41,245 nt of DNA. Source: an uncultured Chlorobiaceae bacterium. Its GTDB lineage: Bacteria > Bacteroidota > Chlorobiia > Chlorobiales > Chlorobiaceae. Every line of letters begins with the position of its first letter. Position 1 is the stretch's first letter. The stretch covers positions 1-41,245 of the forward strand of contig CAIJWE010000025.1 of assembly GCA_903824295.1 (NCBI GenBank), given 5' to 3'. The notes below the pieces were generated by a model. The model was not told where the DNA came from. It searched no databases and saw only the letters and a list, made by a program, of their open reading frames with translations. A program made the translations under genes and the position numbers. Positions 323-39,073 of the stretch are shown in pieces.

Positions 323-1564
323 TTAATTTATCACCGACACTTCGCCGCTCATCAGTTTTGGAAGAAGGGTGTCACGGAGTTTTTCAAGTGTACGAAGTTG
401 TAAATGGTTCACGTCTTTCTTTTTCCACCATGACTTCACAAGTCTTGAAAATTCAACAACCGTTTCTTTTGGTGGTAATTTGAACTTAGGTCTTTGTAAG
501 CCGTCTATTGCAAGCATATTAACAGTCGAGCCATTTGTAGCAGATATGATCTGTTCTCTAACATTAGGCGTCATTAGAAGGTAATAAAGGTACTCGGTAG
601 TGAGATAGCTGTTTTCCTTTAAAATTACCCGGTAAATATGTTGGCTGAACAATCCATTTTCTCCATAAAAAGACGGAACAATTGCGGGGCATCCAATTAG
701 CTTAAATTCATGTCCTTGTTCAGTGTTTGCAACAATAATATCTCCAGTTCTGACAAGATGGCGTTCTTTGAATTCGCCCGTATAATACTTAATTCCGACT
801 TCTTTATACCCGCCACCTTCATAGATCGAATTCAAATTGTGCATTGGTATACCCAAACCTGAATCAGATAAGCCACTGCCTTTATAGCTAAGTCCTCTCA
901 TGACTTCACTATGGCAATCAAGTGTTGTGTCTGACCACTTCTCATGCGCATCTTCGATGAACCACTGGCGAAAAAGGGTTTCGGCCATGGATTCGAGGGT
1001 TTTGTTCTGGCGATGCAGCAGATCGATTTTGTCATCGAAGCTGCTGAGGACTGCTGCAATAACTTTTTGTTCGGGAAGAGCAGGAAGTCTAATCGGCAGC
1101 AATTTAAGAATTTGCTGATTTAGAGAGGGCATGGTGGCACCACTTGCAAATTGAAGCATCCACTCCCTATGTGACTCACTACCAAATTGATAAGAAATAA
1201 ATGCTGCATCTATCGAGTCATCAAATCGCAATCTGATACAGTCACTTCCCTGCAGCCATCCCTCCTCCGATGTTTTGATTATTGCCCTACGCTCGACGGC
1301 ACCCTTCCTCCCAAAAATAATATCACCTTTTTTAACCTTATACCGCGATAAACGCTTTACAGTAAATTCGTTAACATAAACAAACTTATGATGGCTCAGC
1401 TTGTTTTCACCAATATCTTGAACGGCAATCACAGGGGTTCCCGTGACGGTGTATTCTGAAGAATTGAGCATTGTCCCAAATGGACCCGTTTGAAGCTCCG
1501 CACTACCTCTATCAATTAATTGCCCTAATTGATAGACGTTCCACCCGCTCAAACCTTCACTCAT
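323..1564 (-). CDS. hsdS: Type I restriction-modification specificity subunit HsdS
   Basis: This is the DNA sequence-recognition subunit of a type I restriction-modification enzyme; it docks two HsdM subunits and dictates the bipartite target. The 413-residue product has the classic two-half layout: target recognition domain 1 (about residues 5-160), a central helical conserved region (FDDKIDLLHRQNKTLESMAETLF), target recognition domain 2 (about 205-380), and a second conserved helical region near the C-terminus (LRTLEKLRDTLLPKLMSGE). I chose ATG 1564 (MSEGLSGW) over an in-frame start at 1588. It is preceded by GGAGGTGGGG and its ATGAGTGA overlaps the stop of the upstream DUF1016 gene by 8 nt, indicating translational coupling. 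Target specificity cannot be read from the sequence. Confidence 0.93.
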   Translation of the reverse strand: MSEGLSGWNVYQLGQLIDRGSAELQTGPFGTMLNSSEYTVTGTPVIAVQDIGENKLSHHKFVYVNEFTVKRLSRYKVKKGDIIFGRKGAVERRAIIKTSEEGWLQGSDCIRLRFDDSIDAAFISYQFGSESHREWMLQFASGATMPSLNQQILKLLPIRLPALPEQKVIAAVLSSFDDKIDLLHRQNKTLESMAETLFRQWFIEDAHEKWSDTTLDCHSEVMRGLSYKGSGLSDSGLGIPMHNLNSIYEGGGYKEVGIKYYTGEFKERHLVRTGDIIVANTEQGHEFKLIGCPAIVPSFYGENGLFSQHIYRVILKENSYLTTEYLYYLLMTPNVREQIISATNGSTVNMLAIDGLQRPKFKLPPKETVVEFSRLVKSWWKKKDVNHLQLRTLEKLRDTLLPKLMSGEVSVIN

Positions 1565-2663
1565 CCCCACCTCCCAACTCCGCCTCAATCTGCTCGATAC
1601 TCGGGAGGGATGACTGATATTCTGCTGGCAGGTTTTTGGTAATCATGTATTCACTGACACCAATCGGCTTGTGAATATCTTTGAGTGCGTATTCGACCAC
1701 CACATCATTTTTTGACTTGCAAATGATGATGCCTATGGTGGGGTTATCCTGTTCGGTTTTCAGGATACCATCAACCGCAGAGACATAAAAATTAAGTTTT
1801 CCGGCAAACTCCGGCTTGAACTTTACCGCTTTGAGTTCAATCACCACAAAACAGTGCAGACGGGTATGGTAGAACAGGAGGTCAATAAAATAGTCTTCGC
1901 CGCCGACTTCCAGTTTGTACTGCCGCCCGATGTATGAAAAGCCTGCGCCGAGTTCCAGTAGAAATCGGGTAACATGCTCAATTAAAGCATCTTCGAGTTC
2001 TTTTTCATCGTGCTTTTTGCGCAGCAAAAGAAAATCGAAATTATAGGGGTCTTTGAGGATTTGCTGGGCTAAATCTGATTGCGGGGCTGGCAGGGTTGCC
2101 TTAAAGTTGGTGATGGCTTTACCTTCGCGCTGGAAGAGGCGGCTTTCGATATGATGGGTTAAAACAGCCCTCGACCAATTGTTCTGAATGGTTTGCTGCA
2201 CATAAAAGAGCGCTTCGCCCTGTTCCTTGATTTTGCTGATGATGACAAGGTTGTGACCCCAAGGTATTTGGGCAACAAGCTGCTGCCCAAATAATGAGTT
2301 TTCTAATTGGGCAACAGCCTGTTGCCCAATTGCAGATTTGTCCAATTGTGCAGCAGCTTGCTTCGCAATTGCATTCGTTCCTGACCAGAACTGATACCAC
2401 TGGCGCATATATTTCAGGTTACGCACGGAAAACCCTTTCATATCAGGAAATTCAGATTGCAGGTCATGGCTTATCTGCCCGAGAATGCCATCACCCCAGG
2501 CCGATGCCTGTTGGCGGGCAATAATGCGTTCAGCCAAATCCCAGTACAACTGAAGCATAGTCTGATTGACCGATACCGCTGCTTTGAGTTGTGCTGATTG
2601 AATCCGGTTTTTGAGTTCCCTGATAAACTCCCTGTACTCTGTTGTGTTGAGCGGCGCGTTCAT
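1557..2663 (-). CDS. DUF1016 (YhcG-type) PD-(D/E)xK nuclease-like protein
   Basis: The 368-residue protein has the two parts of the DUF1016/YhcG family: an N-terminal helical DNA-binding-like domain (about residues 10-95 and 137-180, with the WGHN motif at the junction) and a C-terminal PD-(D/E)xK nuclease domain. The visible catalytic signature is D261 (in YFIDLLFYH) followed by E276-L-K278. Homologues are predicted nucleases often found inside or beside restriction systems. The gene sits between hsdM and hsdS: its ATG overlaps the hsdM stop (ATGA) and its stop overlaps the hsdS start, so it is part of the operon. Residues 98-136 are three tandem 13-residue repeats of the type xxGQQxVAQLxxS, annotated separately. 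Whether it modifies restriction or acts as an independent nuclease is unknown. Confidence 0.88.
2256..2372 (-). repeat. Three 39-bp palindromic repeat units inside the DUF1016 gene
   Basis: Three in-frame 39-bp units encode [26 protein letters not shown] and [13 protein letters not shown]. Each contains a 27-bp inverted repeat. The middle one (2305-2331) is a perfect 13-bp arm palindrome (AATTGGGCAACAG and its complement) around a single base. The copy at 2266-2292 is nearly perfect, and the one at 2344-2370 is degenerate (10 of 13 arm positions). The repeat lies between the two domains of the protein, so it works as a linker, but the palindromic DNA could also be selected as DNA or arise by duplication. 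Confidence 0.85.
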
Positions 2664-4204
2664 ATTTTCACCCTCGCCAGATTCTCCGCAATTGCCTTGT
2701 TCAGCTCAGCTTCTTCGAGCAACTGTGATTCAAATTCAGCCTTCAGAGCAGCAAAGCGTTCGGCGAAGTCAAAGTCGTCCTCTTCTTCAGCAAGGCCAAC
2801 ATAGCGCCCCGGTGTGAGCACGTAGTCGAGTTCCTGAACTCGTTCCAGCGGCACGGAGGCACAAAAGCCTTTGCTATCCTCATAATCGCCTTCGCCGGTT
2901 CGCCAGTCATGATAGGTCTTGGCAATGAGATCAACGTCGTCACCTGAAAGTTCACGGGTACGGCGATTGATAAGGTGACCAAGGTTTCGCGCGTCAATAA
3001 AAAGTATTTCATTCTTGCGCGGATGACCGTTGTTCCGTGCCCGATTCAGAAACCAGAGAGCGGCTGGAATCTGGGTGTTCAGGAAGAGTTTGGCGGGGAG
3101 GTTGACAACGCAGTCAATCAGGTTACCATCGGCTATCATGGATTTACGGATATCGCCTTCGCCGCTGCTTTTACTGGTGAGTGCGCCTTTGGCAAGCACA
3201 ACTCCGGCAAGGCCATTCGGCGCAAGGTGAAAGATGAAGTGCTGCAACCATGCGAAGTTGGCATTGCCTGCCGGTGGAATGCCATATTTCCAGCGGCCAT
3301 CACCACGCAGTTGCTCACCGCTCCAGTCGCTGTCGTTGAAAGGGGGATTGGCTATGACGTAATCAGCTTTGAGGTCTTTATGGGCGTCGTTGAGAAAGGA
3401 GCCTTCGTTGTTCCATTTGACCTGGGAGCTGTCGATACCGCGAATAGCGAGGTTTATCTTTGCCAGACGCCAGGTGGTCTGGTTGCTCTCCTGACCGTAG
3501 ATTGAGATATCCTTTACTCGGCCCTGATGCTCGGTAATAAATCGTTCGGACTGCACAAACATGCCACCGGAACCACAGCAGGGATCCAAAACCCGGCCTT
3601 TATAGGGTTCAAGCATGGAGACAAGCAATTCAACAATGCTGCGCGGGGTGTAAAACTGCCCACCCTGCTTGCCTTCGGCGAGAGCGAATTCGCCGAGGAA
3701 GTATTCGAAGACGTGACCAAGCACATCGCGGCTCCGCGACTTGGCATCACCGAGGGCGATATTACTCATGAGGTCAATCAGACCACCAAGACTTGCAGGA
3801 TCAAGGTTTTGGCGTGCATAGACCTTGGGCAGAACACCCTTGAGCATAGGGTTCTCTTTTTCAATAATATCCATCGCCTCATCGACAAGGATACCAATAT
3901 CCGACTGGCGGGCACTTGTCAGCAAAAATGACCAGCGTGCTTGCTGAGGCACAAAGAAAATGTTTTCTCCTTTGTACTCATCCTTATCTTCCGGGTCGGC
4001 TCCGGCATACTCCCCTTCACCTGCCTGAAGTATGGCGTACATCTCTTCGAAAGAGTCGGAGATGTATTTGAGGAACATGAGCCCAAGCACGATGTGTTTG
4101 TATTCGGCGGCGTCAATATTTTTACGCAGCTTGTCGGCGGCTTTCCAGAGCTGCTTTTCTATGGGTTCTTCTTTGGTCTCTTTTGGTGACTTGGTTCTTG
4201 CCAT
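2660..4204 (-). CDS. hsdM: Type I restriction-modification methyltransferase subunit HsdM
   Basis: This is the adenine-N6 DNA methyltransferase subunit of a type I system; it forms the M2S modification enzyme with HsdS. The 514-residue protein has the N-terminal helical HsdM_N domain (about 15-150) and an N6_Mtase domain. The AdoMet-binding motif I is DPCCGSGG beginning at D207, and the catalytic motif IV is N286-P-P-F. The length is typical for the family. The start at ATG 4204 gives [13 protein letters not shown], a normal charged N-terminus. It is the first gene of the operon, and its stop overlaps the ATG of the DUF1016 gene by 4 nt. No hsdR follows within the window; the minus-strand order places any hsdR beyond the left edge. 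Confidence 0.95.
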
Positions 4205-26690: not shown

Positions 26691-26812
26691 CACATTGAAA
26701 TCTCAAGGAAGAAGGAGATGATATCGGACAATCGGTAGAGAGTAGGGGTGGCTATGATAATTTATATTATTCTTCCTTTTAGGATAAAACACTCTTATTC
26801 AAAACAACAACA

Positions 26813-27454
26813 TTAACGCATGAATATTTTCCACACATAGACGAAATTATTCAACCAATGAGCTAATGCACCATCAATACCGCTTCTCATCGACCAAATA
26901 ATTAATATCAAATGAAACAATATAAACGCCACAATAAAAAGGCACGAGAAAAATATCCCGTAATACTGAATATCTGGTTGGAATCTACCAATTTGTTTTT
27001 TCATTGCAATTGCATGAAATCCAAACGTTAGCCCTATGAGCAAATCAATAATCCAAAGAGCTTTAATCGTTATCCAAAGTCGGAGAATTAATAAGGCAAA
27101 GGTATAAACAGGCAAACAGTAAGGTGCAAGTAAAATAAACGGATTGTTCGTCATTTTGCCACTGTGAGAAATAGCACCGCCTTCACCGTTTGTGGCATGA
27201 AATAAATGTATCTTTTGGAAAAAAGCTAATACGACAATAGTGTGCGTGAGCTCATGGGTAAAGGTCTCCAAAAAATCCAGATTTTTTTGGAGCAAACCTT
27301 TCAATACTATATATGCTACAAAGCCAATAATAAACCACAAATAAGCTTTTGGGTGCATTACTGCCCAACTGATTGCATTATATAGGCAATAAATGCTGAA
27401 TAGCGAAAACAGGGTTATAAGTGGATATGATATAATTTTTAAGAATTTGAACAT
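26813..27454 (-). CDS. Membrane HExxH (M50-like) metalloprotease-like protein
   Basis: The 213-residue polytopic protein has about five or six hydrophobic segments and the zinc-protease motif H67-E68-L-T-H71 in FTHELTHTIVVLAFF, placed inside or next to a TM helix as in M50-type intramembrane proteases. A downstream segment (SGKMTNNPFILLAPYCLP) sits where M50 proteins carry their further metal or structural region, but a canonical NPDG motif is absent. It is the last gene of the cassette, starting 9 nt after the PBP-like gene. It may process a membrane protein of the same operon, such as the single-TM 528-aa protein; that is inference. Base composition is A+T-rich like the rest of the cassette. 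Confidence 0.7.
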   Translation of the reverse strand: MFKFLKIISYPLITLFSLFSIYCLYNAISWAVMHPKAYLWFIIGFVAYIVLKGLLQKNLDFLETFTHELTHTIVVLAFFQKIHLFHATNGEGGAISHSGKMTNNPFILLAPYCLPVYTFALLILRLWITIKALWIIDLLIGLTFGFHAIAMKKQIGRFQPDIQYYGIFFSCLFIVAFILFHLILIIWSMRSGIDGALAHWLNNFVYVWKIFMR

Positions 27455-27463
27455 GATGCCTCG

Positions 27464-30127
27464 TCATTGAAAAAGCTTGTCAGTATAGAAAAGGATTTTT
27501 TCAAAAACATTATTTTTGTTGGATATAAAATTACGAGCAGAACTAGAATTGATATTGCCTATAGCACTGCCTTTTTCTGTCCAATATGTATGCACAATGC
27601 GTACAACTGCTGAAATACCGGAATTATGTGCAACTCTATCACTTCCATTTCTAATTCTGTTATATTGTATAGTATTCATAAGCGAGAATGAATACAAACC
27701 CATATCATATTCAACATTTTTTTTGTTGTCGCTGTTTATATTTCGTTGGGCATTTTCAATATCAGGCAAAGAAAATTCATCAGGCGTCCCAGTTTTTCCC
27801 AAAATTACTAAATTGCGACCAATAGCAGTAACACGAGATTGAGACGGGCCGAGCAAACTTGCATTACCATTTGACGACTGTGCATCGTGAAATGATTTCA
27901 TAAAATCGTTCCATACATCATTTGCCCTCCTTGTGCCGTGTCGATAATCTCTGCCGTCCCGATCTATTTTTTCAGTAAGCAGTTGTTCGTAAGTTGGATT
28001 GGGATTACGAATAAAGGACAATCTAACAGGATATTTTGTGTTCATTCTTGCCCAAGCTTCTGCAAGCTTTAACGGAGACCAACTGTTATCGCCTTGACCC
28101 AATACCCACGAAATCACTTTTGTGCGAAATGATTCTCCATTGTTGTGCCACGACCAATAATTCATATTGGTATATTCAGGCGATATATCAGGAAACGAAA
28201 TGCTATCTTCTTTGCTAAATTGATTTTTATTAAACATTCGCCAAACATAAATTTCAGGAACAATATGCATATCTTGGGTGTTTTGCCTTGCTTCGTTTGA
28301 ATTGATATTGTACAAAATATCAAGCATTTTTGCGAACTGACTATTGTGTATAGGATAATCACTGTTTATTTTAGTGTCTGCCGTTCTGGGGAGCAATAAA
28401 GTTGCAGGAAATTTGTGTGGATTTATTGTCATAAAACTTGTTGGCAATTCATTTCGATCGTTTGGATTTGTAAAAGCGTACATTGCCAGCATAATAGGGT
28501 AGACATCATTTGAAGACGCAAAATATTGGGTCATTGTCATTCCGTTATTCCACTGTGCTTTAATGTAATTCGACAAACTGAAAATGGGACAACCGAGCAA
28601 AGTTACATTCCAACGGTCGCCGTTAGCAACAGGCAGTGGTTGCCACATTGCAGGATTAGTTGTTAAATTAAGTAAGTCTGGATAAACCTGTACTGCTGCC
28701 AAAGTCATAAGCGGCTTAAAGCATGAACCGATAAAACGCCGTTGAGTATTTGAATTTTTCCGATCTAATTGATAGGCTGGATTGATTCTTAATGTTGAAT
28801 ACGAAGGTGCTGCCAAAATTTCACCTGTAGCCGAATTTATTAATGAAATAGACATTTCAACCTTTTCACCTTCGTGTAACTTAACACCACTAATCAAAAC
28901 AGAGTCAACATATTTTTTTAATTCGCCTTCTAAGGTTTTAGACAAATAGGGGTCTATTGATAGATTAATATTATCAGGCGATGTTTCGTTCATTTTCTGA
29001 TTAAAAAGATCTACGATTTTCTGTGTAAAATTATCGGTATAAAGCGTATCGACCTGTGTTCTCATTTTCCCCTTATTTGTATCAAGAGAATATGAAAGCG
29101 TATTCATTGGATTGTTGCGAAAAAAATAAAATTCGGCTTTCTTGTTTTTTATACCTTCATCAGAAACTACTACTCTCAGAACATTTTCGTTAAATCTAAA
29201 AGTACACCCGACACGAGAAAGACTTGCATTAGGAGAGCCTACCATTTTTTTTGTACCACAATAAATATCTAAATTTGTAGGCATATCAAAAACCAAACTG
29301 TCTCTTTGTTTTATAGTGTCCGTAAAAATTTGTACCGTAAAAGATTTATTGTCATCACCGTCAACACTAAATCTTATAAACCTTCCTTTTTCATAACATT
29401 CTTTGTAGTAATCGTATAAATCAATTGGCAAATCGCTGTGCTGTAAATAATTATTTTTTAACTTTACGATATAATTTTCCTGGCGTTGGACAAAAATGCT
29501 ATCCTGTCGCTTAACTGGCAAAACCGAACTTCCATATACGACAAACAATGAATTAGTTGAATCGATTTTTCCATACGAATGGCCAACAATAGTTCCAAGC
29601 CAAGGCTTATTGTTGAATTTTATTGTATACAATTCAGGAATCATTTTGATATATTCAATCTCAGCAACTCCCTTATAAATTTTAATTTTCAAATTAAAAT
29701 ACTTTTTGTAAAGGTTTTGATTTTGCTGTTTGAGAATATTTTGCAACTCGCTACTAAGATAAAAATTTTTAAGATTTGTATTTTTTATCCTATTCTCTTT
29801 AATACCGACTAAGCGAATATCGCCAACCAAGCACTCGCCTTCTTTAACATCATCGGGAAGAGCAAATATAAGTGCAGGATAACGATAATTTAATTGATCT
29901 AATGGTGTTAAATTCTTTTTTGTATCAATATTTTCTATTAATAGCAATTCTGTAAACAAAGCATCTGCTTTGCCAATAAAACCTTTGCCATCCCCGGCAA
30001 TTGGCTTATAACTATCTTTACTGCTGTTGCTAAAAAGAGAATAGCCAAATACGCAACTAACAATCACAACTACAATTACGATTATCGCCTGGAGCATATT
30101 TTTATGATTTGCATTAAATACCGCCAT
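27464..30127 (-). CDS. Membrane-anchored penicillin-binding-protein-like transpeptidase
   Basis: The 887-residue protein has an N-terminal TM anchor (about residues 11-33), a long extracytoplasmic region (35-430) that I do not recognise, and a C-terminal transpeptidase domain. All three active-site motifs of penicillin-binding proteins are in order: S468-C-F-K471 (in RRFIGSCFKPLMTLAAV), S538-S-N540 (in FASSNDVYPIM) and K778-T-G780 (in VILGKTGTPDEF). The entry strand SLINSATGEILAAPSYS is also typical of PBPs. The triad is intact, so an active D,D-transpeptidase is likely. The spacing to KTG is longer than in most class B PBPs. A SEDS-like gene lies in the same cassette, matching the known SEDS/class B PBP partnership. 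The M50-like gene follows after 9 nt. Confidence 0.8.
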   Translation of the reverse strand: MAVFNANHKNMLQAIIVIVVVIVSCVFGYSLFSNSSKDSYKPIAGDGKGFIGKADALFTELLLIENIDTKKNLTPLDQLNYRYPALIFALPDDVKEGECLVGDIRLVGIKENRIKNTNLKNFYLSSELQNILKQQNQNLYKKYFNLKIKIYKGVAEIEYIKMIPELYTIKFNNKPWLGTIVGHSYGKIDSTNSLFVVYGSSVLPVKRQDSIFVQRQENYIVKLKNNYLQHSDLPIDLYDYYKECYEKGRFIRFSVDGDDNKSFTVQIFTDTIKQRDSLVFDMPTNLDIYCGTKKMVGSPNASLSRVGCTFRFNENVLRVVVSDEGIKNKKAEFYFFRNNPMNTLSYSLDTNKGKMRTQVDTLYTDNFTQKIVDLFNQKMNETSPDNINLSIDPYLSKTLEGELKKYVDSVLISGVKLHEGEKVEMSISLINSATGEILAAPSYSTLRINPAYQLDRKNSNTQRRFIGSCFKPLMTLAAVQVYPDLLNLTTNPAMWQPLPVANGDRWNVTLLGCPIFSLSNYIKAQWNNGMTMTQYFASSNDVYPIMLAMYAFTNPNDRNELPTSFMTINPHKFPATLLLPRTADTKINSDYPIHNSQFAKMLDILYNINSNEARQNTQDMHIVPEIYVWRMFNKNQFSKEDSISFPDISPEYTNMNYWSWHNNGESFRTKVISWVLGQGDNSWSPLKLAEAWARMNTKYPVRLSFIRNPNPTYEQLLTEKIDRDGRDYRHGTRRANDVWNDFMKSFHDAQSSNGNASLLGPSQSRVTAIGRNLVILGKTGTPDEFSLPDIENAQRNINSDNKKNVEYDMGLYSFSLMNTIQYNRIRNGSDRVAHNSGISAVVRIVHTYWTEKGSAIGNINSSSARNFISNKNNVFEKILFYTDKLFQ

Positions 30128-30308
30128 ACTATTCTACCCCTTGATTTACAGAGTTAATAAGCGTTAAACTACAAGTTTTTCCGTGTTAACGTGTCGGTTT
30201 TGCTTGATTTCCTATCGTTCAACTAGTCAGTTACTTAGGGATTAACTCTTGTTTAGAGCTTACGATTAGGAATCTCGTTATAAAATTCACCTCCTGTAAC
30301 TTGCCCAT
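30128..30308 (-). other. Intergenic 181 bp in the cassette: no translatable gene, structured element
   Basis: This is the only large gap within the cassette. It contains a 100-bp segment (30150-30249) bounded by perfect 9-bp inverted repeats, AGAGTTAAT and ATTAACTCT. On the minus strand a Shine-Dalgarno-like AGGAGGTGAAT (around 30290) is not followed by a start codon. Instead it lies within a 30-codon open stretch (30253-30345) in another frame, overlapping the end of the 528-aa gene. It may hold a promoter or a mobile/structural element. No U-tract terminator is visible. Confidence 0.5.
30150..30249. repeat. 100-bp segment flanked by perfect 9-bp inverted repeats
   Basis: AGAGTTAAT at 30150-30158 and ATTAACTCT at 30241-30249 are exact reverse complements. 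Inside are partly symmetric blocks (CGTTAA and TTAACG near the left arm). It could be a folded RNA, a MITE-like remnant or an attC-like recombination site; none of these is demonstrated. Confidence 0.5.
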
Positions 30309-31895
30309 CTATTGTTTTTGTTTTGAACGTACGAATATAGTCGTATCATTGATTTTAAAAGAAATAAGCTCCTTATTTAGAATGTCTAACACTTGAAACC
30401 ATTCAGGATTTATTGTAATCGACATCGTTCGCCCATCTGGTACAGATACAGGTACAGATGCATTTGCTGGTGCTGAAGGAGCCTCTACTAACGGTGTTAT
30501 ATGGGCTGGCGCATTTATAAGTGAACCAGTTTTATAGCCACCTCCAAAACAAATAATCAATGCTGCTATTACAAGAAACGCTGTAATATTGTATTTATTT
30601 ACATAGTCAAAAGTTTTTTTGAAAATGCTTGGCATTGTTATATCATTTTTAAAAAACTCTTTATGTACTTTGCGAGATAACTGCTTGATTTTATGTTCAC
30701 AAACAGAAAATTCAATTCCAACATTTTTAAAAAATATCAATAATTCGCGCAGTTTTTTCTCTTTTTCTTTTTCAGGAATAAAATCTATCAATTTTTTCAC
30801 GTCAATATCTTGACCAATCAACAATCTGTTGTCTGGCAACAATTTTGTATCTTTAATATCTGGAATATCAAGGCTTTTAATTGTCTCCGTATCAGGCATT
30901 TGTTTTGTAATTTTCCAAATAAAAACAACTTCACCTATATTTTGACAGAATGGGTAAAGCTCTGCAATGCTATTTGACAAATCAATGTTGATAAATGGAC
31001 TTTTTCCACCAAGATAGTTCAAAAATTTTTGAAAGTCGGCAGATGTAATAGGCTGTAAATTTTGAAGGATTGTTGCAAAAGATAAATCGGTATCGAAAAA
31101 ATCTATTGCGCCATTCATCAATCTTGATGCGCTTCTTATATATACTTCCGATTGATCGAGATAATCAGTTTCAGACTTATGACTTAAATCACTCCATTCA
31201 ATTTGTTTTATTTTTCCAAATCCGAAGTCTTTTATATTACCGTGATAAATAATAATCAATTTATCATACAGAAATTCTTTGTAGTAATTTTCATCTATCG
31301 ACAATGCAAACGAAGCCAAAGGGCGCAACTCCTCGGGCAACATGTCTATAGCTGCAAAAAGCGTTTTTGCAACTTCGTTTTCCAAAACTCCATTTTCTTT
31401 CCATTCGAAATCATTATCTATACGAATTAACAGATACTCTAAATTAGCAATCGCATGCATAATTTGTTCGGCAAGATTGAATGCTTTGCTTCTGTCGTAT
31501 CCTTTAGTTTCTTTTAGCTGTAATAAATTGTCTAACTGTCCAATTTTTTTGTCACGATACTTTTCCATTTTCGGCAAACTGTTTATAATTTCACCGATTT
31601 TGAAATTGCATTCACGAATATTATCTGCATCAATGTCGTAAAATATTCGCGTATCGTACATTCTACCGGGTATACCATTGTGTTGACCCTGAATATGTAT
31701 AACTGATAGACAATTAAGGCTTGGCTCACGATATGCAAAAAGCGAGGCATATATTGGCGACAGTTTGTTTTGTCCGTGCTTGTCTTCAAGCAATTCAGAA
31801 ACGTGTGGGCGTATAGTTGTGGTCGCAATTTCCAAATAACCTATTGCTCCCTCTAATGCGCCCTTTATTGCTTTTTTTATTAGTATATTTTTCAT
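30309..31895 (-). CDS. Unknown 528-residue protein with one TM segment near the C-terminus
   Basis: The large N-terminal part (residues 1-430) is soluble and mixed alpha/beta, with no domain I recognise. One hydrophobic segment lies at about 436-453 (ITAFLVIAALIICFGGGY). It is followed by an Ala/Pro/Val-rich stretch (APAHITPLVEAPSAPANASVPV) and a short beta-type tail that would be extracytoplasmic if the N-terminus is cytoplasmic. This bitopic layout could pass a signal across the membrane, linking the GTPase-like side to the wall-enzyme side. It starts 7 nt after the 213-aa gene and precedes the PBP-like gene. Its last codons overlap a 30-codon open stretch in another frame (30253-30345). 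Confidence 0.7.
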   Translation of the reverse strand: MKNILIKKAIKGALEGAIGYLEIATTTIRPHVSELLEDKHGQNKLSPIYASLFAYREPSLNCLSVIHIQGQHNGIPGRMYDTRIFYDIDADNIRECNFKIGEIINSLPKMEKYRDKKIGQLDNLLQLKETKGYDRSKAFNLAEQIMHAIANLEYLLIRIDNDFEWKENGVLENEVAKTLFAAIDMLPEELRPLASFALSIDENYYKEFLYDKLIIIYHGNIKDFGFGKIKQIEWSDLSHKSETDYLDQSEVYIRSASRLMNGAIDFFDTDLSFATILQNLQPITSADFQKFLNYLGGKSPFINIDLSNSIAELYPFCQNIGEVVFIWKITKQMPDTETIKSLDIPDIKDTKLLPDNRLLIGQDIDVKKLIDFIPEKEKEKKLRELLIFFKNVGIEFSVCEHKIKQLSRKVHKEFFKNDITMPSIFKKTFDYVNKYNITAFLVIAALIICFGGGYKTGSLINAPAHITPLVEAPSAPANASVPVSVPDGRTMSITINPEWFQVLDILNKELISFKINDTTIFVRSKQKQ

Positions 31896-31902
31896 GATCG
31901 TA

Positions 31903-32544
31903 TTAAATTTTTAATAGCCAATTTTCTATATTAGAGTTATTCATATATGCTGGAACTCGTATCTTGTATTTACTAAATAAATCAACAACAAGATTAAAAG
32001 TCCCAAATGGCAAACGTTGATCTATATTAAGATTGTCAAATTTCTGACGATGAATGCTGTTATTTTTATGTATAGTCAATTGGGTTCCGTCTATTGGATA
32101 AGCTGTAAAATATATATGCGGAATAATGATATTTGTATATACTGTAGGCGTATTTGTATTTACTGATGGCTTAAACCTTTCATGGCCAAATACAGTATAG
32201 CTTTGCAATTCACTAACTCTGCTCGCTAAAAGTACATCAAGTCCTTGATTATTATTGTCTCGAGGAACTGCAAATTCACTTTCTTGTTTCAATATATCAT
32301 CTAAATATACAGAAGAGTTGTCAATGTGAATGAAGTTTGGATCTAAATTACTTTCATCAAAAAGAATCCAGTTTGATGCTTTACTGGCACCTTCAAAGAA
32401 TTCATCAAATTTATCAACAAACCTCGCACCAAATTTCTTATATATTGCTAATAGGACGAGATAGTATACTTTAGTCGACATAGTCTTAATGTCGGTGACA
32501 TTAAAAGTATTATATAATCCAATGAATTTATCAGGATTCAACAT
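31903..32544 (-). CDS. Unknown 213-residue cassette protein
   Basis: A soluble protein with no signal peptide or TM segment: MLNPDKFIGLYNTFNVTDIKTMSTKVYYLVLLAIYKKFGARFVDKF, then a mid-region rich in Asn/Asp. I do not recognise the family and see no catalytic motif. It lies between the GTPase-like gene (9-nt gap upstream) and the 528-aa gene (7-nt gap downstream), both on the same strand. It is therefore surely part of the transcript and a candidate cytoplasmic partner of the GTPase-like protein. Confidence 0.7.
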   Translation of the reverse strand: MLNPDKFIGLYNTFNVTDIKTMSTKVYYLVLLAIYKKFGARFVDKFDEFFEGASKASNWILFDESNLDPNFIHIDNSSVYLDDILKQESEFAVPRDNNNQGLDVLLASRVSELQSYTVFGHERFKPSVNTNTPTVYTNIIIPHIYFTAYPIDGTQLTIHKNNSIHRQKFDNLNIDQRLPFGTFNLVVDLFSKYKIRVPAYMNNSNIENWLLKI

Positions 32545-32553
32545 TGCATCTAA

Positions 32554-34290
32554 TCATTTAAATACTACATATAAATTAGGACACGTTCCAGTTTCTTTTT
32601 CAAAAAAGGTTTTGACACCACGGAGACATGATGTATAGTTTTTCTGTTCTGTATTAACATTATAGCTTATCCCTCCAGCATCTATTGGCAATGCAAGCAA
32701 TTCACATAAAATTATATCAGTACTTTTATCACAAAATACATATGCATAGAAATTTTGCCAAAATGTAGTAGAAATATTTTTTAAATTAGCATACCCATCT
32801 ATCTCTTCTACTATCTGTTTTAATACATTCTTTAAATTATCTGTATCATATTGTTCAAAGTTTTTTACAACATCTTTTCCGCTGACATATTTGTATGCTT
32901 TAAGATTGTGAATATTATTTTCATCGACATTACTGACCTCACGCATTAAGACTCGTTTTGTGCTTTTCGTATTCCCCTTATAAAGAGATAATTGTCTCCC
33001 CTTTTCACTATCCATTTCCATTAAGAAGTTAATATTATCAATATCCAAAGAAATACCAAGCCATTTTATAAGCCTTTTTGTCAATTTGTTAGGAAGTTTA
33101 GTTAACATTATCTTCCACCTTTTATGAGTGTATTTCTCTTTAAGGCAGGACTTTAAATTCGTATAAATACCAGTAATATTTTCAGCCTCGTGAAATGCCT
33201 CACCCGGTATATCCATAAACTCAATAATTCTTTCATTTCCTTCAATTGTTAATGAACCTTTATAGTGGTGTGTTGATTTTGTAAGATTAGTTATATCTGT
33301 AGGGTCAATATTTTTATTTCCAACAATACTGTTCAAATAACTTTGAACTTGCGGATAACCATAATAAGGTTTCGTATTTACATTTATTCCCATAATGGTT
33401 AATGCTCTGAAAATATCAGAAATACAATGCGATTTCCCATTATCTTGAGTTCCTACAACAGCAATTTTTATTGGTTTTTTTTTCATATCAGTATTGTATT
33501 TTATGCCATTATTCTTTGTAATATAATGATACAACTTATTACTTGTTATTGATATTTCGGCATTTTTATCTTTATAAATATGATTTATGCAATAAATCAA
33601 ACAATCAATGTAACCAAAATTTATATCTGATTTATATAAACAGAAAACCTTTTTTCGAAGAATAAGACGTTTTTTTTGTGGAGTTATAATGCCCTGTGTA
33701 TCCGTGTAAGGAAACAAATATCCAGATTGTAAAAGGCTTTTCAATTCTTCTGAGAATCCTTCTGCTGTTCCATTTATAAGATCTATGTGCTGCGCAACTG
33801 CTAATCTTGCGTATGTATTGAAATCAACAGGATATTTCTTTTCAAACCCAAAATGAGGGTCTTCATCAAAAGCAGCAAACAAAATTGTTTTTTCGCTATC
33901 AATTTGCTTTATGTTATATGATATCCTGTTTATTTTCCATGTTTCGGGTAAGTTTTGTAAATCAATACACAAAACAAAAATATCGGCCGAATCGCACCAG
34001 ATTTTTATACTCTCCGAAATACTATTGTTATCCTGATATTCAAAAATTTCCGCTGGTGGCGCTGTATTATCAAAAGTAATTTGTCGTTTAGGCAAATCTA
34101 TTCGACCACCTCCGAGATAAAATGATTTTTCTGTTCCTGCCACTTTTTTACGCACAAAGCCCCATCGCTTATCAAAAACTTTCTTTTGCGTAAGTAAATT
34201 CTCAAAGTGCACAATAATCCTGTTTGTTTCGTTTTTGTGTTCAAAAAACGAGAACAGGCATATACGGCCATTCGGGATTTTTTGGTTCAT
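32554..34290 (-). CDS. P-loop GTPase-like protein of the cassette
   Basis: The 578-residue soluble protein has a Walker A motif G280-TQDNG-K286-S287 (KIAVVGTQDNGKSHCISDIF), and 80 residues later a switch II/Walker B-like D360-I-P-G363-E (IIEFMDIPGEAF). This is the G1/G3 arrangement of TRAFAC-type GTPases; DxPGE forms are seen in GTPases of bacterial conflict and signalling operons. No clear G4 N/TKxD was found. Residues 1-250 form a separate domain without a P-loop (VLCIDLQNL, TILFAAFDEDPHFG), perhaps a degenerate relative. The frame extends to 34380, but ATG 34290 overlaps the stop of the upstream gene by 4 nt (ATGA) and is taken as the start. Confidence 0.75.
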   Translation of the reverse strand: MNQKIPNGRICLFSFFEHKNETNRIIVHFENLLTQKKVFDKRWGFVRKKVAGTEKSFYLGGGRIDLPKRQITFDNTAPPAEIFEYQDNNSISESIKIWCDSADIFVLCIDLQNLPETWKINRISYNIKQIDSEKTILFAAFDEDPHFGFEKKYPVDFNTYARLAVAQHIDLINGTAEGFSEELKSLLQSGYLFPYTDTQGIITPQKKRLILRKKVFCLYKSDINFGYIDCLIYCINHIYKDKNAEISITSNKLYHYITKNNGIKYNTDMKKKPIKIAVVGTQDNGKSHCISDIFRALTIMGINVNTKPYYGYPQVQSYLNSIVGNKNIDPTDITNLTKSTHHYKGSLTIEGNERIIEFMDIPGEAFHEAENITGIYTNLKSCLKEKYTHKRWKIMLTKLPNKLTKRLIKWLGISLDIDNINFLMEMDSEKGRQLSLYKGNTKSTKRVLMREVSNVDENNIHNLKAYKYVSGKDVVKNFEQYDTDNLKNVLKQIVEEIDGYANLKNISTTFWQNFYAYVFCDKSTDIILCELLALPIDAGGISYNVNTEQKNYTSCLRGVKTFFEKETGTCPNLYVVFK

Positions 34291-35672
34291 TGTCTTTTTG
34301 TACTGCTTATTGCTGGAAAAGCGACCAATCCTGCCAAAAGTATAGGGGCTAAATCTATCAAAATACTTAAGAAAAAGCATCGGATACTTTCCTTAAACAG
34401 CAGTTCATGGACTTCTTTTTCGCCCTCTGATCTTAAGTTATTGTGGTTTTCTGTGTATTTTCCGGACAACAATTCAAACAAATCATTAAGTGCTTTATTT
34501 TGGTCTATTGTTTTTGTATTTATGATAGTATGATACTTTATTACTGTTATATTTTTTTGTGAAAGAGAATCTAATTTGCCATATAACTCACCCTCTACTT
34601 TTACAATATTGCTTTTTATATTTCGTTGCATTACTTTATTACCAGCTATTTTCTCCAAATCAAATCTTAGAATCAAAGAATCCAATGTATGTAGTAAACT
34701 ATCAGCTGAAAAAATTGCGTCCTTTTTTTGGATAATAGGCGGTGTTTGTATTGTATCATCTAAATCTTCAATTTTTTTATCAAGTTCTTTTATATTTTTA
34801 TTTACCTGATTAAATACCGGATTTGTGTAACGAAAATTTTTTTCGTCATATTTATATCTGGTAATTTGACTGCTATTTAACTTCTCCTGTAATTCACTTT
34901 TCTCTGTTTTATATTCATTGATTTTATTTATATTTGGTTGATTTACTTGTCGAAGTGAATCTAATTTTGTGTTTATTTTTTGTTTGTCCGTGCTGATGTT
35001 TGGCGTTATGTATTTGCTTAATTCTTCGCTTGTTCTTACTGCTTGTGCCATTATTTGCGTTTCGCCAAAGTTGCTGTAAATATGAAAATAGTTAAAAGTT
35101 AATGCTGCAATATCAAACAATATGTAAAGCCCGATACAACATACCAAAAATAGAATTTTTTTGTCGCCTTGTATATAGGGCATTTGGTGTGTAAGCCAGC
35201 CTGTTACCCAAAAGAGAGTAACAATGACAATAACTGACAGAAACCAACAGAACACACCGTCAAGCCCGTTTTCATTCATCCACAAAAAAGATATACTTTC
35301 ATGCATAATGTAGCAGGCAACAGCCAAAAATGAAATAGTTAATATCCAACGCAGATAAATCCAAACCGACATTTCACGCATTTTTTGTCCTGTACTTTTC
35401 CATCTCTCTTTCCAGCTTTTTGGCGTATCGTATTTGTAATCATAATTTACAGTTTCAATGCAAATTTCGTCTTCCGCCTCAAACTTTTTATAAAAGAATG
35501 AGGTCACCCAACCAATAAAACAGCTTATTAACAACCACAAAAACCAGTTACTATTAAAATTGCGGCAAAAAATTCCGAAAACAACTATATACAGCACAAA
35601 CGTTATTAGCAGACCATTGTTTAGGAAGAGTTTACCAAGTTTGTTTATCGCTTTTTTCTTTTCTTCTGTCAT
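34287..35672 (-). CDS. Polytopic membrane protein with extended coiled coil, unknown family
   Basis: The 461-residue protein has five predicted TM segments in its first half (about 20-37, 42-62, 103-122, 139-160, 171-192), a long charged helical region at about 200-425 (KINTKLDSLRQVNQ, KTEKSELQEKLNSSQ, KNIKELDKKIEDLDD) that should form a coiled coil, and a last TM at about 429-455. I do not recognise the family. Its ATG overlaps the SEDS-like stop (ATGA) and its stop overlaps the GTPase-like start (ATGA), so it is coupled to both and may be a membrane scaffold or sensor between them. Confidence 0.75.
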   Translation of the reverse strand: MTEEKKKAINKLGKLFLNNGLLITFVLYIVVFGIFCRNFNSNWFLWLLISCFIGWVTSFFYKKFEAEDEICIETVNYDYKYDTPKSWKERWKSTGQKMREMSVWIYLRWILTISFLAVACYIMHESISFLWMNENGLDGVFCWFLSVIVIVTLFWVTGWLTHQMPYIQGDKKILFLVCCIGLYILFDIAALTFNYFHIYSNFGETQIMAQAVRTSEELSKYITPNISTDKQKINTKLDSLRQVNQPNINKINEYKTEKSELQEKLNSSQITRYKYDEKNFRYTNPVFNQVNKNIKELDKKIEDLDDTIQTPPIIQKKDAIFSADSLLHTLDSLILRFDLEKIAGNKVMQRNIKSNIVKVEGELYGKLDSLSQKNITVIKYHTIINTKTIDQNKALNDLFELLSGKYTENHNNLRSEGEKEVHELLFKESIRCFFLSILIDLAPILLAGLVAFPAISSTKRQ

Positions 35673-38578
35673 CTTTTATCTTGATTATAAGGATTATTCA
35701 AAGTACACATATATGCAAATAACACAATAATTTCGAATGCTTCCCCTACTGCATCAACGCCAAAGCCTGGTATTAGCCGTCCTGTGAATGGGACTATATC
35801 ATAATAGGAAGCGAATAGAAAAAGTGTAACACCAATCCACAAGTTGCAAGCAAGCAGTTGCCCAATTAGTTGACGATTTATTGTGAATTCTTGAGGATTT
35901 TGTCTCCATGCATCGCCAATGCTGAAAAAATAAACATAAAAGCCCAATGCCAAAACACCAAACAACAAGCCAATCCAACCCCAGCCACGCATCGAGCCAA
36001 GATATACGCCAGGAATGGCAAAATCATTCAATATTACAGGTGACTGGCCCGCAGAAACAAGTTGGTGAAAATTGTTTTCTTCGCTGTAAATATCATAATC
36101 ATTACCTCTACCAGCTTCTACCTTCTCAGCATAATGAAGCATCACTTCCATCCATTGCATATCACTTTCGGAATAGAGATAACCCGCATTTTTCACATCG
36201 CCTGGTGAAATATAATTTTGTATACGGCGAGACACCCTACTATAGTTAATATTTTCTGTATTAGAATATATATTTGAAACCTCCCAAACTCCAATCCCAA
36301 GAACAAGAATGCAAACAATCAAACTCAAACTAAAATTCCAGTTCATAATTCGAATATTGTTTTTTCCAGCACCCGATATTACTTTAGAAGAACAGAATAT
36401 CAAAAACATCCAAGTCGCAGCGATTCCAAATACATATACAAAAAAACCAAAATCAGAAAAAACCCCTATTAAAACCCAAATACAAACAAAAGCCAAATTT
36501 CCAATAATCCACAGCCAAAGTTTGTGGGTCAACAAATTAGTCTTATACCATTCTTTATTTTTCGAAATACCATAAAATGCTTTATGTTCAATGTTTTCGT
36601 ACGCTGGATTAGTTTGGCAATTAATTTTCCAACAAAATATATTTTCCCCCATATACCGATCAGTTGGTGTAGGTATCGTAGATGTAAGTATTTCCATTAA
36701 TTGTCTTAATACAATAAGCAAAATCAGCACGGCGGCTGCCGTGCCGTAATGTCCAAGAAACGATATAAAAATTGCTATTAAAATGATTATTCCGATTTTA
36801 GTCGGCCATTTCAAATTGGCAATACTCGGAAATTTCTGCTCAATCCAAATAATCGTTTTTTCTATAAAATTAAGATTTAATATCAATATCAAAAAAAATA
36901 ACAAACCACCAACCAACTCAAAAACATAAAAGTGATTGTCCTTCATTGAATTACTAAAAGGTTTAAGAAACGATATCTCTTCTTTTAAATAACTGTTCCA
37001 AATCGGCGACACAAAACTTTCTGTTATGCCATTATACGCTTTTACACAAATAATAATAATAAAAATAGAAATAATTGATTTCCATATCCAGTTATAACTT
37101 ATTTTAAGTTGGATATATTTTTTGGTTTTTGAAAATAATCCTTTTTTTATTGTAATATATTTAAGACTGGCATTGTTTAAAAACGACCTGTTGATCACAA
37201 TTATTAACAAAAACATTGTAAAAAGTGAGAACAAAGTTGTAAGATACGCAACAGGATAAATATTTTCAAAATATGGATATGTAAAAGTCAATTTCTCGGC
37301 AATCAATAATTTTTGATTTAAAAAAAACCAAAACAAAGTAAACATACCCAAGATATACCAACGCATATCTTGAATTTTTTCAGCTTGTGAGCCTCCTCCT
37401 GATTCAGGAAATGACAAAAACAAAATCACCCCCAAAACCAACCATACAACTGCCAATACCCAATGTTTCGACCAATAAAAAGCTTTATTTAAAACCCGTG
37501 ATTTGTATGTGATTCCGCCCGCTACAAGTTGTTGATTTACTGCATTAATTTTTGGAATAAAGCTTCCTGAAGTCGATAACAGTACTGTATCTTCTTTTTC
37601 TGATTCCTGGAAAATCAGATTATTGTTTTTAACTCCAGAAAGTTCACAAACATTTCCTGAAAGGGCATTAGAAAATGCAGGAATATAAAAATCGGTAGGC
37701 AAAGGGTAATATGATTTCAGCATTTGCTTAAGATACACGCCTGTTTTAGAACTATCACCTCTTGCTTTTGTTATTCCGTCAATTGGAATCGTGGTGGTTA
37801 TAGCTTTGGGGAAGGTTACTGAAAAATGTGAATCATTTCTTTTTATGAGAATATGACCCGCACCCCAATCTGTAAATACTTGCACTGGTTTTGCAAAATA
37901 TGTTCTAATGCTGTCTGATAAATTTTTGTTATTCTCTTGTTTTTTTATGCTCCAACTTTTCATTTTAAAAAACTGGATTTTTAATTCTGAGCCTTGAGAT
38001 AACGTCTTAGAATAGCAATAACCAACATCATTTATTCTTGTGGATTTGTCGAGGATTACAAGCCTGTATTCGCCATTTTTCTTATGAATAAACGAGTTGA
38101 ATTCAATTTCGCCATTATTTACTGAATTAAGAAGTTTAAGAGTTAAGCGGTCAGCAAATAAATCTTTGAGCATATAGTAACCATCATCAAAATCTTTTAA
38201 TCTTCTTAAAATATAATCACCAGTAACTCGAATATTAAAAATGGTAATTATGCTGTTTTTTCCTATTTCGTAAAGATTGATATTTTCGTTATTGATAAAA
38301 TAATACAAACAACTATCTGTATTGTTGATTTTGTATGAAAAGGCTCCTTTATCATACGATACTGTCATATACTTTTCAGGTATACCTTTAAAGCACACAT
38401 CGGAGTTCTCGCCAATGGTTAAATCATTGCTATTGGGCAAATCAAATTGTGTAATTGAGAAATACAAACGATCATTCGTGGCATTTATATATCCGAACCA
38501 TACAATACTGATTGTAGCTAAAATAGTTGCAACCGTCATACCAATAAACCCGTTTTGGAATGGGAATTTGAATTTCAT
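35669..38578 (-). CDS. Divergent SEDS (FtsW/RodA)-like polytopic protein with large extracytoplasmic domain
   Basis: The 969-residue protein starts with a TM segment (about 10-31), then has a roughly 340-residue non-membrane, probably extracytoplasmic region, then about a dozen TM segments from residue 373 to the end. The C-terminal half resembles SEDS peptidoglycan glycosyltransferases: FLGHYGTAAAVLILLIVL, then LNDFAIPGVYLGSMRGWGWIGLLFG, where D852 would match the catalytic Asp of the DFIF...EElGfiG loop, and P930-FTGRLIPGFGVD, equivalent to the PvTGlPLPF motif. Similarity is motif-level and the protein is more than twice normal SEDS length. The PBP-like partner in the same cassette supports the call. 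An ATGA overlap joins it to a 36-codon ORF upstream. Confidence 0.68.
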   Translation of the reverse strand: MKFKFPFQNGFIGMTVATILATISIVWFGYINATNDRLYFSITQFDLPNSNDLTIGENSDVCFKGIPEKYMTVSYDKGAFSYKINNTDSCLYYFINNENINLYEIGKNSIITIFNIRVTGDYILRRLKDFDDGYYMLKDLFADRLTLKLLNSVNNGEIEFNSFIHKKNGEYRLVILDKSTRINDVGYCYSKTLSQGSELKIQFFKMKSWSIKKQENNKNLSDSIRTYFAKPVQVFTDWGAGHILIKRNDSHFSVTFPKAITTTIPIDGITKARGDSSKTGVYLKQMLKSYYPLPTDFYIPAFSNALSGNVCELSGVKNNNLIFQESEKEDTVLLSTSGSFIPKINAVNQQLVAGGITYKSRVLNKAFYWSKHWVLAVVWLVLGVILFLSFPESGGGSQAEKIQDMRWYILGMFTLFWFFLNQKLLIAEKLTFTYPYFENIYPVAYLTTLFSLFTMFLLIIVINRSFLNNASLKYITIKKGLFSKTKKYIQLKISYNWIWKSIISIFIIIICVKAYNGITESFVSPIWNSYLKEEISFLKPFSNSMKDNHFYVFELVGGLLFFLILILNLNFIEKTIIWIEQKFPSIANLKWPTKIGIIILIAIFISFLGHYGTAAAVLILLIVLRQLMEILTSTIPTPTDRYMGENIFCWKINCQTNPAYENIEHKAFYGISKNKEWYKTNLLTHKLWLWIIGNLAFVCIWVLIGVFSDFGFFVYVFGIAATWMFLIFCSSKVISGAGKNNIRIMNWNFSLSLIVCILVLGIGVWEVSNIYSNTENINYSRVSRRIQNYISPGDVKNAGYLYSESDMQWMEVMLHYAEKVEAGRGNDYDIYSEENNFHQLVSAGQSPVILNDFAIPGVYLGSMRGWGWIGLLFGVLALGFYVYFFSIGDAWRQNPQEFTINRQLIGQLLACNLWIGVTLFLFASYYDIVPFTGRLIPGFGVDAVGEAFEIIVLFAYMCTLNNPYNQDKR

Positions 38579-38685
38579 TCTTTATTCTCAATTATAAGAT
38601 TCAGAAAGATTGCGTAGGCCCTGGATAAACGCATGAGGTATCTGTTTGCTGCTTCAGAGGTTTTTGCATTGGGTCGCAGTGGCAT
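38575..38685 (-). CDS. Small 36-codon ORF coupled to the SEDS-like gene
   Basis: ATG 38685 opens MPLRPNAKTSEAANRYLMRLS... and ends in a TGA that overlaps the ATG of the SEDS-like gene (ATGA at 38575-38578). The open frame continues upstream to a stop just before a CAA codon, adding about 13 residues without another ATG. It may be a translated leader that couples ribosomes to the SEDS-like start, or the tail of a truncated gene carried into the island. No similarity recognised. Confidence 0.4.
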   Translation of the reverse strand: MPLRPNAKTSEAANRYLMRLSRAYAIFLNLIIENKE

Positions 38686-38734
38686 CAGCAAAGTTGCATT
38701 GGCAAAAGGTGTATGTAGCCATTGTCAAATCTTT

Positions 38735-38744
38735 AGTCGCGACT
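38735..38744. promoter_or_regulatory. Palindrome AGTCGCGACT upstream of the cassette
   Basis: A perfect 10-bp palindrome followed by TAA lies 50 bp before the small leader ORF. A related palindrome sharing the GACTTAA core is at 38828-38839. The pair could be operator half-sites for a repressor of the cassette; no regulator gene is seen in the window. Confidence 0.3.
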
Positions 38745-38827
38745 TAATATCGCCATATTACGTCGCAACATATTCTCTGAACAACTGTACTCAATAACAA
38801 AATAAATACACATAAAATATATAATGC

Positions 38828-38839
38828 CGACTTAAGTCG
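38828..38839. promoter_or_regulatory. Palindrome CGACTTAAGTCG upstream of the cassette
   Basis: A perfect 12-bp palindrome lies immediately upstream (on the minus strand) of the TATATATTTTATG stretch, where an operator overlapping a promoter could sit. It shares the GACTTAA core with the palindrome at 38735-38744. Confidence 0.35.
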
Positions 38840-38964
38840 ACTACACGGAATACACTAAAACAAGACGAATAATGAAGCGTTACGATAAAAAAAGCTTTGA
38901 ATCGGCGGACTTTGGGTGGGTGTATGTGGCATTTTTGTATATATAATTTGCAATTACTGACCGC

Positions 38965-39073
38965 CATCACGTACTACAAATAACTCACTCTCAATGTATT
39001 CAACATTTTCAACTATATAAACGATTAGTGTAAATTTTTATTAAAAATCACCGAAAAAGATCAGTTTTACAGC
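38965..39073. repeat. Dispersed repeat, copy A (upstream of ppx)
   Basis: A 109-bp stretch matches 40707-40814 in the same orientation. A 23-bp core is identical (38992-39014, starting CAATGTATTCAACATTTTC), with further matches on both sides (TACAAATAACT before it; GTAAATT, TTAAAATCA, AAAAAG and TTTAC after it). It carries no transposase and lies in non-coding DNA. Confidence 0.75.

Follow-up and report, generated by a model that had tools for sequence, protein, structure and literature searches.

Does a large membrane protein of an uncultured Chlorobiaceae bacterium belong to the SEDS proteins, the family of FtsW and RodA, despite an additional domain outside the membrane? The protein, here named P0001, is encoded on the minus strand (35669-38578) of contig CAIJWE010000025.1, and the window is the whole stretch of 41,245 nucleotides analysed from this contig. 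The original prediction had described it from motifs as an oversized SEDS-like protein with an N-terminal extracytoplasmic domain. From the analysis presented here we conclude that P0001 is likely derived from a SEDS protein. We also consider it rather probable, judging from sequence data, that P0001 is an active, highly divergent SEDS-like (GT-C) synthase with a partner similar to class B penicillin-binding proteins (PBPs), P0002, whose gene appears to belong to the same operon.

The open reading frame (ORF) of P0001 starts with ATG and codes for 969 amino acids without internal stops. Hydropathy in combination with the positive-inside rule predicts a cytoplasmic N-terminus, a first transmembrane segment (TM1, residues 10-28; 38495-38551, minus strand as for all features of P0001), an extracytoplasmic domain of about 343 residues recognized as a stretch without transmembrane segments (residues 30-372; 37463-38491), a second segment (TM2, residues 373-391; 37406-37462) and a polytopic SEDS-like part (residues 400-969; 35672-37381) with 12 further segments, mapped partly by eye, and a cytoplasmic C-terminus. 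The proposed arrangement of a first TM, a soluble domain of about 340 residues and roughly 12 TMs was therefore recovered. We found one relative of P0001, P0008 at locus L003 of the Prevotellaceae metagenome-assembled genome (MAG) Pc512_bin106, which is 56% identical over residues 1-559 and 57% identical in the extracytoplasmic domain (residues 30-372). According to the original prediction this domain may bind wall or lipid II, or sense damage; no family or profile match was obtained for it. An FHA-like reading of residues 36-120 was rejected: the register covered the full length, yet the score of 10.8 compares with a null maximum of 18.1. An AlphaFold2 model of P0001, calculated with the input sequence and the single relative, reached a pLDDT of 35 and a pTM of 0.25, which is too low for a reading of the fold. 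Within the AT-rich gene a GC-rich hairpin with a terminator-like score, CGGCACGGCAGCCGCCGTGCTG, lies at 36725-36746 over the codons for GTAAAVL.

The polytopic part contains four motifs in the order and orientation of SEDS proteins, with a spacing near that of the family. Alignment with hhalign identified S708-D709-F-G (36446-36457) as the counterpart of the SEDS PDLG motif with D159 of RodA, and R785-IQNYISP (residues 785-792; 36203-36226) as the counterpart of R210-VMMLLDP of RodA, a periplasmic amphipathic helix at the start of extracellular loop 4 (ECL4) with the pyrophosphate-binding Arg. Motif and alignment both assign N851-D852-F853 (36020-36028) to the catalytic D262 of RodA or D297 of FtsW, and P930-FTGRLI-P937 (35768-35791) to the P..G...P motif of extracellular loop 5 (ECL5). 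The last two motifs, together with the G865-W-G-W-I-G sequence that follows D852-F, were found at the residues given in the original prediction; the SDFG (708-711) and RIQNYISP (785-792) motifs lie upstream of them in the right order and are additional to it. In separate runs local hhalign matches covered SDFG, RIQNYISP and the region from DF to P930, all in SEDS order. G609-H-Y-G-T was also considered as the PDLG equivalent and discarded in favour of S708-DFG, which is the choice of a profile alignment, retains the Asp and has the better spacing.

According to the predicted topology, these motifs lie on the side where they would be expected. By the positive-inside rule residues 30-372 are outside, and so are the SDFG turn, the P930 loop and the 99-residue loop 769-867, which contains R785 and D852. 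The succession TM9-SDFG-TM10-TM11-loop-TM12-TM13-P930-TM14 corresponds to TM5-PDLG-TM6-TM7-ECL4-TM8-TM9-ECL5-TM10 of SEDS proteins, and P930-FTGRLI-P937 precedes the last TM, 32 residues from the C-terminus (33-43 in the SEDS proteins listed). Upstream of TM9-SDFG six TMs are present in P0001 versus four in the SEDS equivalent, so that P0001 probably has one additional TM hairpin; the number of TMs is compatible with the SEDS fold of 10 TMs. In E. coli RodA, D262 has been proposed as the catalytic base, R210 binds the donor pyrophosphate and D159 is part of the modelled active-site cluster (PMC10449877). The function of FtsW is abolished by D297A, by changes of R243 or R246 and by changes of residues in ECL3 and ECL5 (PMC8765783).

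To compare the motifs with other proteins we used a composite C-terminal pattern of the last three motifs (R[IVLKM]..[LFMWY], D[FMIL]...G..G and P..G...P). It matched P0001 as well as 54 of 56 SEDS proteins, and a sample of 597 other ORFs from Bacteroidota genomes contained no match. When residues 691-969 of P0001 were block-shuffled 500,000 times, a strict pattern of all four motifs did not occur; it matches just 5 of the 56 SEDS proteins, as the Pro or the first gap differs in many SEDS proteins of Bacteroidota. With a loose form of the four-motif pattern one hit occurred in 300,000 block shuffles. These pattern statistics are somewhat optimistic, since P0001 was already considered when the windows were widened.

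Class B PBPs are the normal working partners of SEDS proteins, and the PBP-like P0002 is for this reason the strongest contextual support for the assignment of P0001. P0002 (27464-30127, minus strand) consists of 887 amino acids with a single N-terminal TM (residues 14-32), an unassigned domain of about 350 residues and a divergent transpeptidase domain. The motifs of class B PBPs, SxxK, SxN, GQG and KTG, are present in this order. SxxK is located in GSCFK (residues 467-471, S468-CFK; 28715-28729), SxN in ASSND (residues 537-541, S538-SN; 28505-28519) and KTG in GKTGT (residues 777-781, K778-TG; 27785-27799), all on the minus strand. The match to the Pfam transpeptidase family was below the cut-off (E 0.03). 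Comparison with a PBP profile using hhalign yielded 46.7 bits (P 6.8e-5, or 1.9e-5 for residues 381-887 at a relaxed threshold) and paired SxxK, GQG and KTGT of P0002 with those of PBPs. Among the 597 null ORFs three scored higher (409, 173 and 85), which are presumed to be true PBPs, and the next reached 32.0.

Several results weigh against P0001 as an active SEDS-like synthase. P0001 had no match in Pfam, NCBIfam and PADLOC, nor in PHROGs. The original prediction had suggested a profile search against FTSW_RODA_SPOVE (PF01098), which gave no support: neither the whole protein nor residues 497-969 produced anything at E <= 10, and hhalign of the single sequence against SEDS profiles was not significant. 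PF01098 does match the canonical FtsW and RodA that are encoded elsewhere in this genome. Single-sequence hhalign scores of P0001 against SEDS profiles from Bacteroidota and E. coli were within the null; in one example with a score of 21.3, 13 of 60 block shuffles scored at least as high, and the global C-terminal score was 17.7 compared with a maximum of 17.9 for the polytopic null. The gaps between the motifs also deviate from SEDS proteins, with 15 instead of 11 residues from DF to G..G and 67 instead of about 50 from R to DF. The contig of the relative P0008 ends upstream of the region with the D709, R785 and D852 motifs, and P0002 and P0004, the GTPase of the operon, were not found in the Prevotellaceae MAG; this absence is weak evidence, as the P0001 gene of the MAG is itself interrupted by the end of the contig.

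The lack of a family match and a profile comparison that is not significant by itself would be expected if P0001 were an unrelated polytopic membrane protein with coincidental SEDS motifs. We regard such a coincidence as very improbable, given that four motifs are collinear and all face the right side of the membrane, that the loose pattern occurred in at most 1 in 300,000 shuffles and that a PBP-like gene is part of the same operon. P0001 could also be another GT-C polymerase or ligase, similar to O-antigen polymerase or WaaL, acting on a different undecaprenyl-linked glycan. An Arg in a periplasmic amphipathic helix is common in WaaL-type GT-C enzymes (PMC10449877), and the number of TMs in P0001 is 12 instead of 10. 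We nevertheless consider this explanation improbable, as neither Wzy nor WaaL families were matched, P0001 shares its operon with a PBP-like transpeptidase, and DF and P..G...P are signatures of SEDS proteins.

A different question is whether a SEDS-derived P0001 is still active. The PL2/QPSExxK stretch of SEDS proteins, which contains a Trp and precedes TM4, and the Glu of GEE are not recognizable in P0001. In the candidate loop 520-550 W527 is present and QPSE is absent, and E554 is replaced by Leu in P0008. As these elements cannot be recognized, P0001 may be inactive. It would then be a SEDS pseudoenzyme, a scaffold lacking polymerase activity that regulates or anchors P0002 or senses the envelope for the GTPase; the intact PBP motifs of P0002 speak for such a role. 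We consider a pseudoenzyme rather unlikely, because the equivalents of D262 and R210, the key residues reported for RodA, and of D159 are kept in order in P0001. Taken together, the SEDS-like assignment of the original prediction stands with regard to the four collinear motifs, their side of the membrane and the PBP-motif partner in the operon, and lacks support at the level of Pfam and of the QPSExxK/PL2 and GEE elements.

Compared with the RodA-PBP2 and FtsW-FtsI pairs, P0001 shares the counterparts of D159, R210, D262 and the P..G...P motif of ECL5, and separate SEDS-like and class B PBP-like genes are located in one operon. P0001 differs from RodA and FtsW by its length of 969 versus about 370-415 amino acids, by the outer N-terminal domain, by the longer ECL4 (about 99 residues), by an unrecognizable QPSExxK and by the absence of sequence similarity at the family level. 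A scan of Bacteroidota with PF01098 identified SEDS-PBP fusions of 1221-1355 amino acids with the plan TM, outer domain, TM, SEDS and PBP (L040:8057-11728, L041:7834-11499, L042:7307-10972 and L043:7536-11603). In Pfam these fusions reach E values of 1e-44 to 1e-53 for SEDS and 1e-21 to 1e-38 for Transpeptidase. Natural SEDS-PBP fusions in a single ORF are already known (PMC10449877). The genomes with the fusions also contain genes with FHA domains, which in part are located near the fusion. P0001 and the fusions have in common the succession of TM1, extracytoplasmic domain, TM2 and SEDS, and in both cases the unit also includes a PBP transpeptidase; the fusions differ in being one polypeptide with a canonical SEDS part and with CarboxypepD_reg in the outer domain (2 of 3 scanned). 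No similarity was detected between the outer domains of P0001 or P0002 and that of the fusions, or between the former two. P0001 and P0002 resemble a split and far more divergent version of a SEDS-PBP fusion. The rarity of an oversized SEDS protein with an outer N-terminal domain, which the original prediction had implied, has to be given up, because canonical SEDS-PBP fusions show the same plan.

The gene of P0001 is the first of seven minus-strand genes which overlap or are closely spaced, in the order P0001, P0003, P0004, P0005, P0006, P0002 and P0007. The widest intergenic gap, 181 bases, is located just before P0002, and by this layout the genes apparently form one operon. In the Prevotellaceae MAG the relative of P0001 is divergent from its upstream gene, which is compatible with a first position in its unit. 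P0003 (34287-35672, 461 amino acids) overlaps the stop of P0001 and has 6 predicted TMs, with a stretch of about 240 residues, probably a coiled coil, between TM5 and TM6 that is predicted to be outside. Its plan presumably resembles that of DUF4407 proteins; a Pfam match was not obtained. P0004 (32554-34380) is a P-loop GTPase according to its motifs GTQDNGKS and DIPGE, and its start is more likely at 34290 (M31), where ATGA overlaps the stop of P0003. P0005 (31903-32544, 213 amino acids) and P0006 (30309-31895, 528 amino acids, one C-terminal TM at 435-453) have no assigned function; residues 363-446 of P0006 match PHROG 21426, whose function is not known (E 1.3e-5). P0007 (26813-27454, 213 amino acids) has 5 TMs, an HExxH motif (HELTH) and similarity to M50B peptidases below the cut-off (E 0.005).

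The matches of P0004 to GTPase families were weak (MMR_HSR1 E 0.004; DO-GTPase2 E 0.12, below the cut-off). A P-loop GTPase with a Walker B-type Glu (DIPGE) in an operon with membrane proteins is reminiscent of the DO-GTPase conflict systems (Kaur et al. 2020, PMC7159879). The GAP1, GASH and FNIII components of those systems were undetected in the P0001 operon, and because GAP1 was not found we did not file P0004 as a DO-GTPase/GAP1 system. The text of PMC7159879 mentions neither FtsW nor a penicillin-binding component, and in the literature searched we found no report of a GTPase-centred system linked to wall synthesis.

All seven genes are located within a low-GC island of about 12 kb (26800-39000, boundaries approximate), in which the GC content is about 30-38% compared with about 50-55% in the flanks on either side; overall, the island has about 32% GC and the surrounding region about 53%. 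The host genome has a size of 2.85 Mb. Convincing direct repeats flanking the island were not found. P0006 was absent from the 97 other genomes of its class (98 genomes searched). In a 296-genome sample of the phylum, P0001 had no counterpart outside its own genome except for a chance-like match of 49 residues; these absences indicate that the island was likely acquired recently. The same-genus match at L002 (49 residues, E 6e-4) overlaps a stretch that weakly matches a cytochrome c in the PDB and was treated as chance TM similarity. Apart from the Prevotellaceae relative, no further homologues of P0001 were found among viral contigs, phages, plasmids and overlapping Bacteroidota samples of 296, 398, 393 and 395 genomes; a scan of a species collection used short exact peptide patterns, which detect close relatives only.

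Near the relative of P0001, L003:2547-5839 contains two adjacent similar ORFs of 538 and 555 amino acids that appear AAA-ATPase/nuclease-like by eye. At 323-4204 the window contains the Type I restriction-modification genes hsdM (2660-4204) and hsdS (323-1588), with an unassigned ORF of 368 amino acids between them (1557-2663). An ORF at 17726-19048 matches only the C-terminal half of ClpB (profile positions 431-852 of 853); an N-terminal half was not seen just upstream on the same strand.

For P0001 as an active synthase we propose the following mechanism. The most likely product of P0001 and P0002 would be a glycan similar to peptidoglycan, polymerized and cross-linked outside the inner membrane. 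D852 would activate the 4'-OH of the acceptor, the donor would be held at its undecaprenyl pyrophosphate by R785, and D709 together with the P930 loop would line the central cavity. P0002 would cross-link the strand with its SxxK/SxN/KTG residues. The outer domains of both proteins and the enlarged loop before TM12 may provide surfaces for coupling or sensing. As the gene order suggests, the cytoplasmic GTPase P0004 may gate the complex, with P0003 and P0006, both membrane proteins, as links. The module would have been acquired horizontally, in addition to the FtsW and RodA of the cell.

The combination of a low-GC island, a divergent SEDS-like gene and genes for a PBP-like protein and a GTPase in one operon suggests a rare, mobile, GTPase-linked machine for wall synthesis. 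Only tentatively do we propose a mobile module not described before, in which the GTPase gates a dedicated SEDS-class B PBP-type synthase via membrane adaptors and thereby provides an accessory wall polymer or repair patch on demand, e.g. upon attack by phages or on the envelope. SEDS-class B PBP pairs are essential wall synthases and are thought to be strongly constrained. If our reading is correct, a pair of this divergence on a probably mobile island, beside an intact FtsW and RodA, would show that such a machine can be taken up as an accessory module under separate control. The divergent pair would then help to identify the indispensable residues of SEDS proteins, and it would link GTPase-centred systems with wall synthesis.

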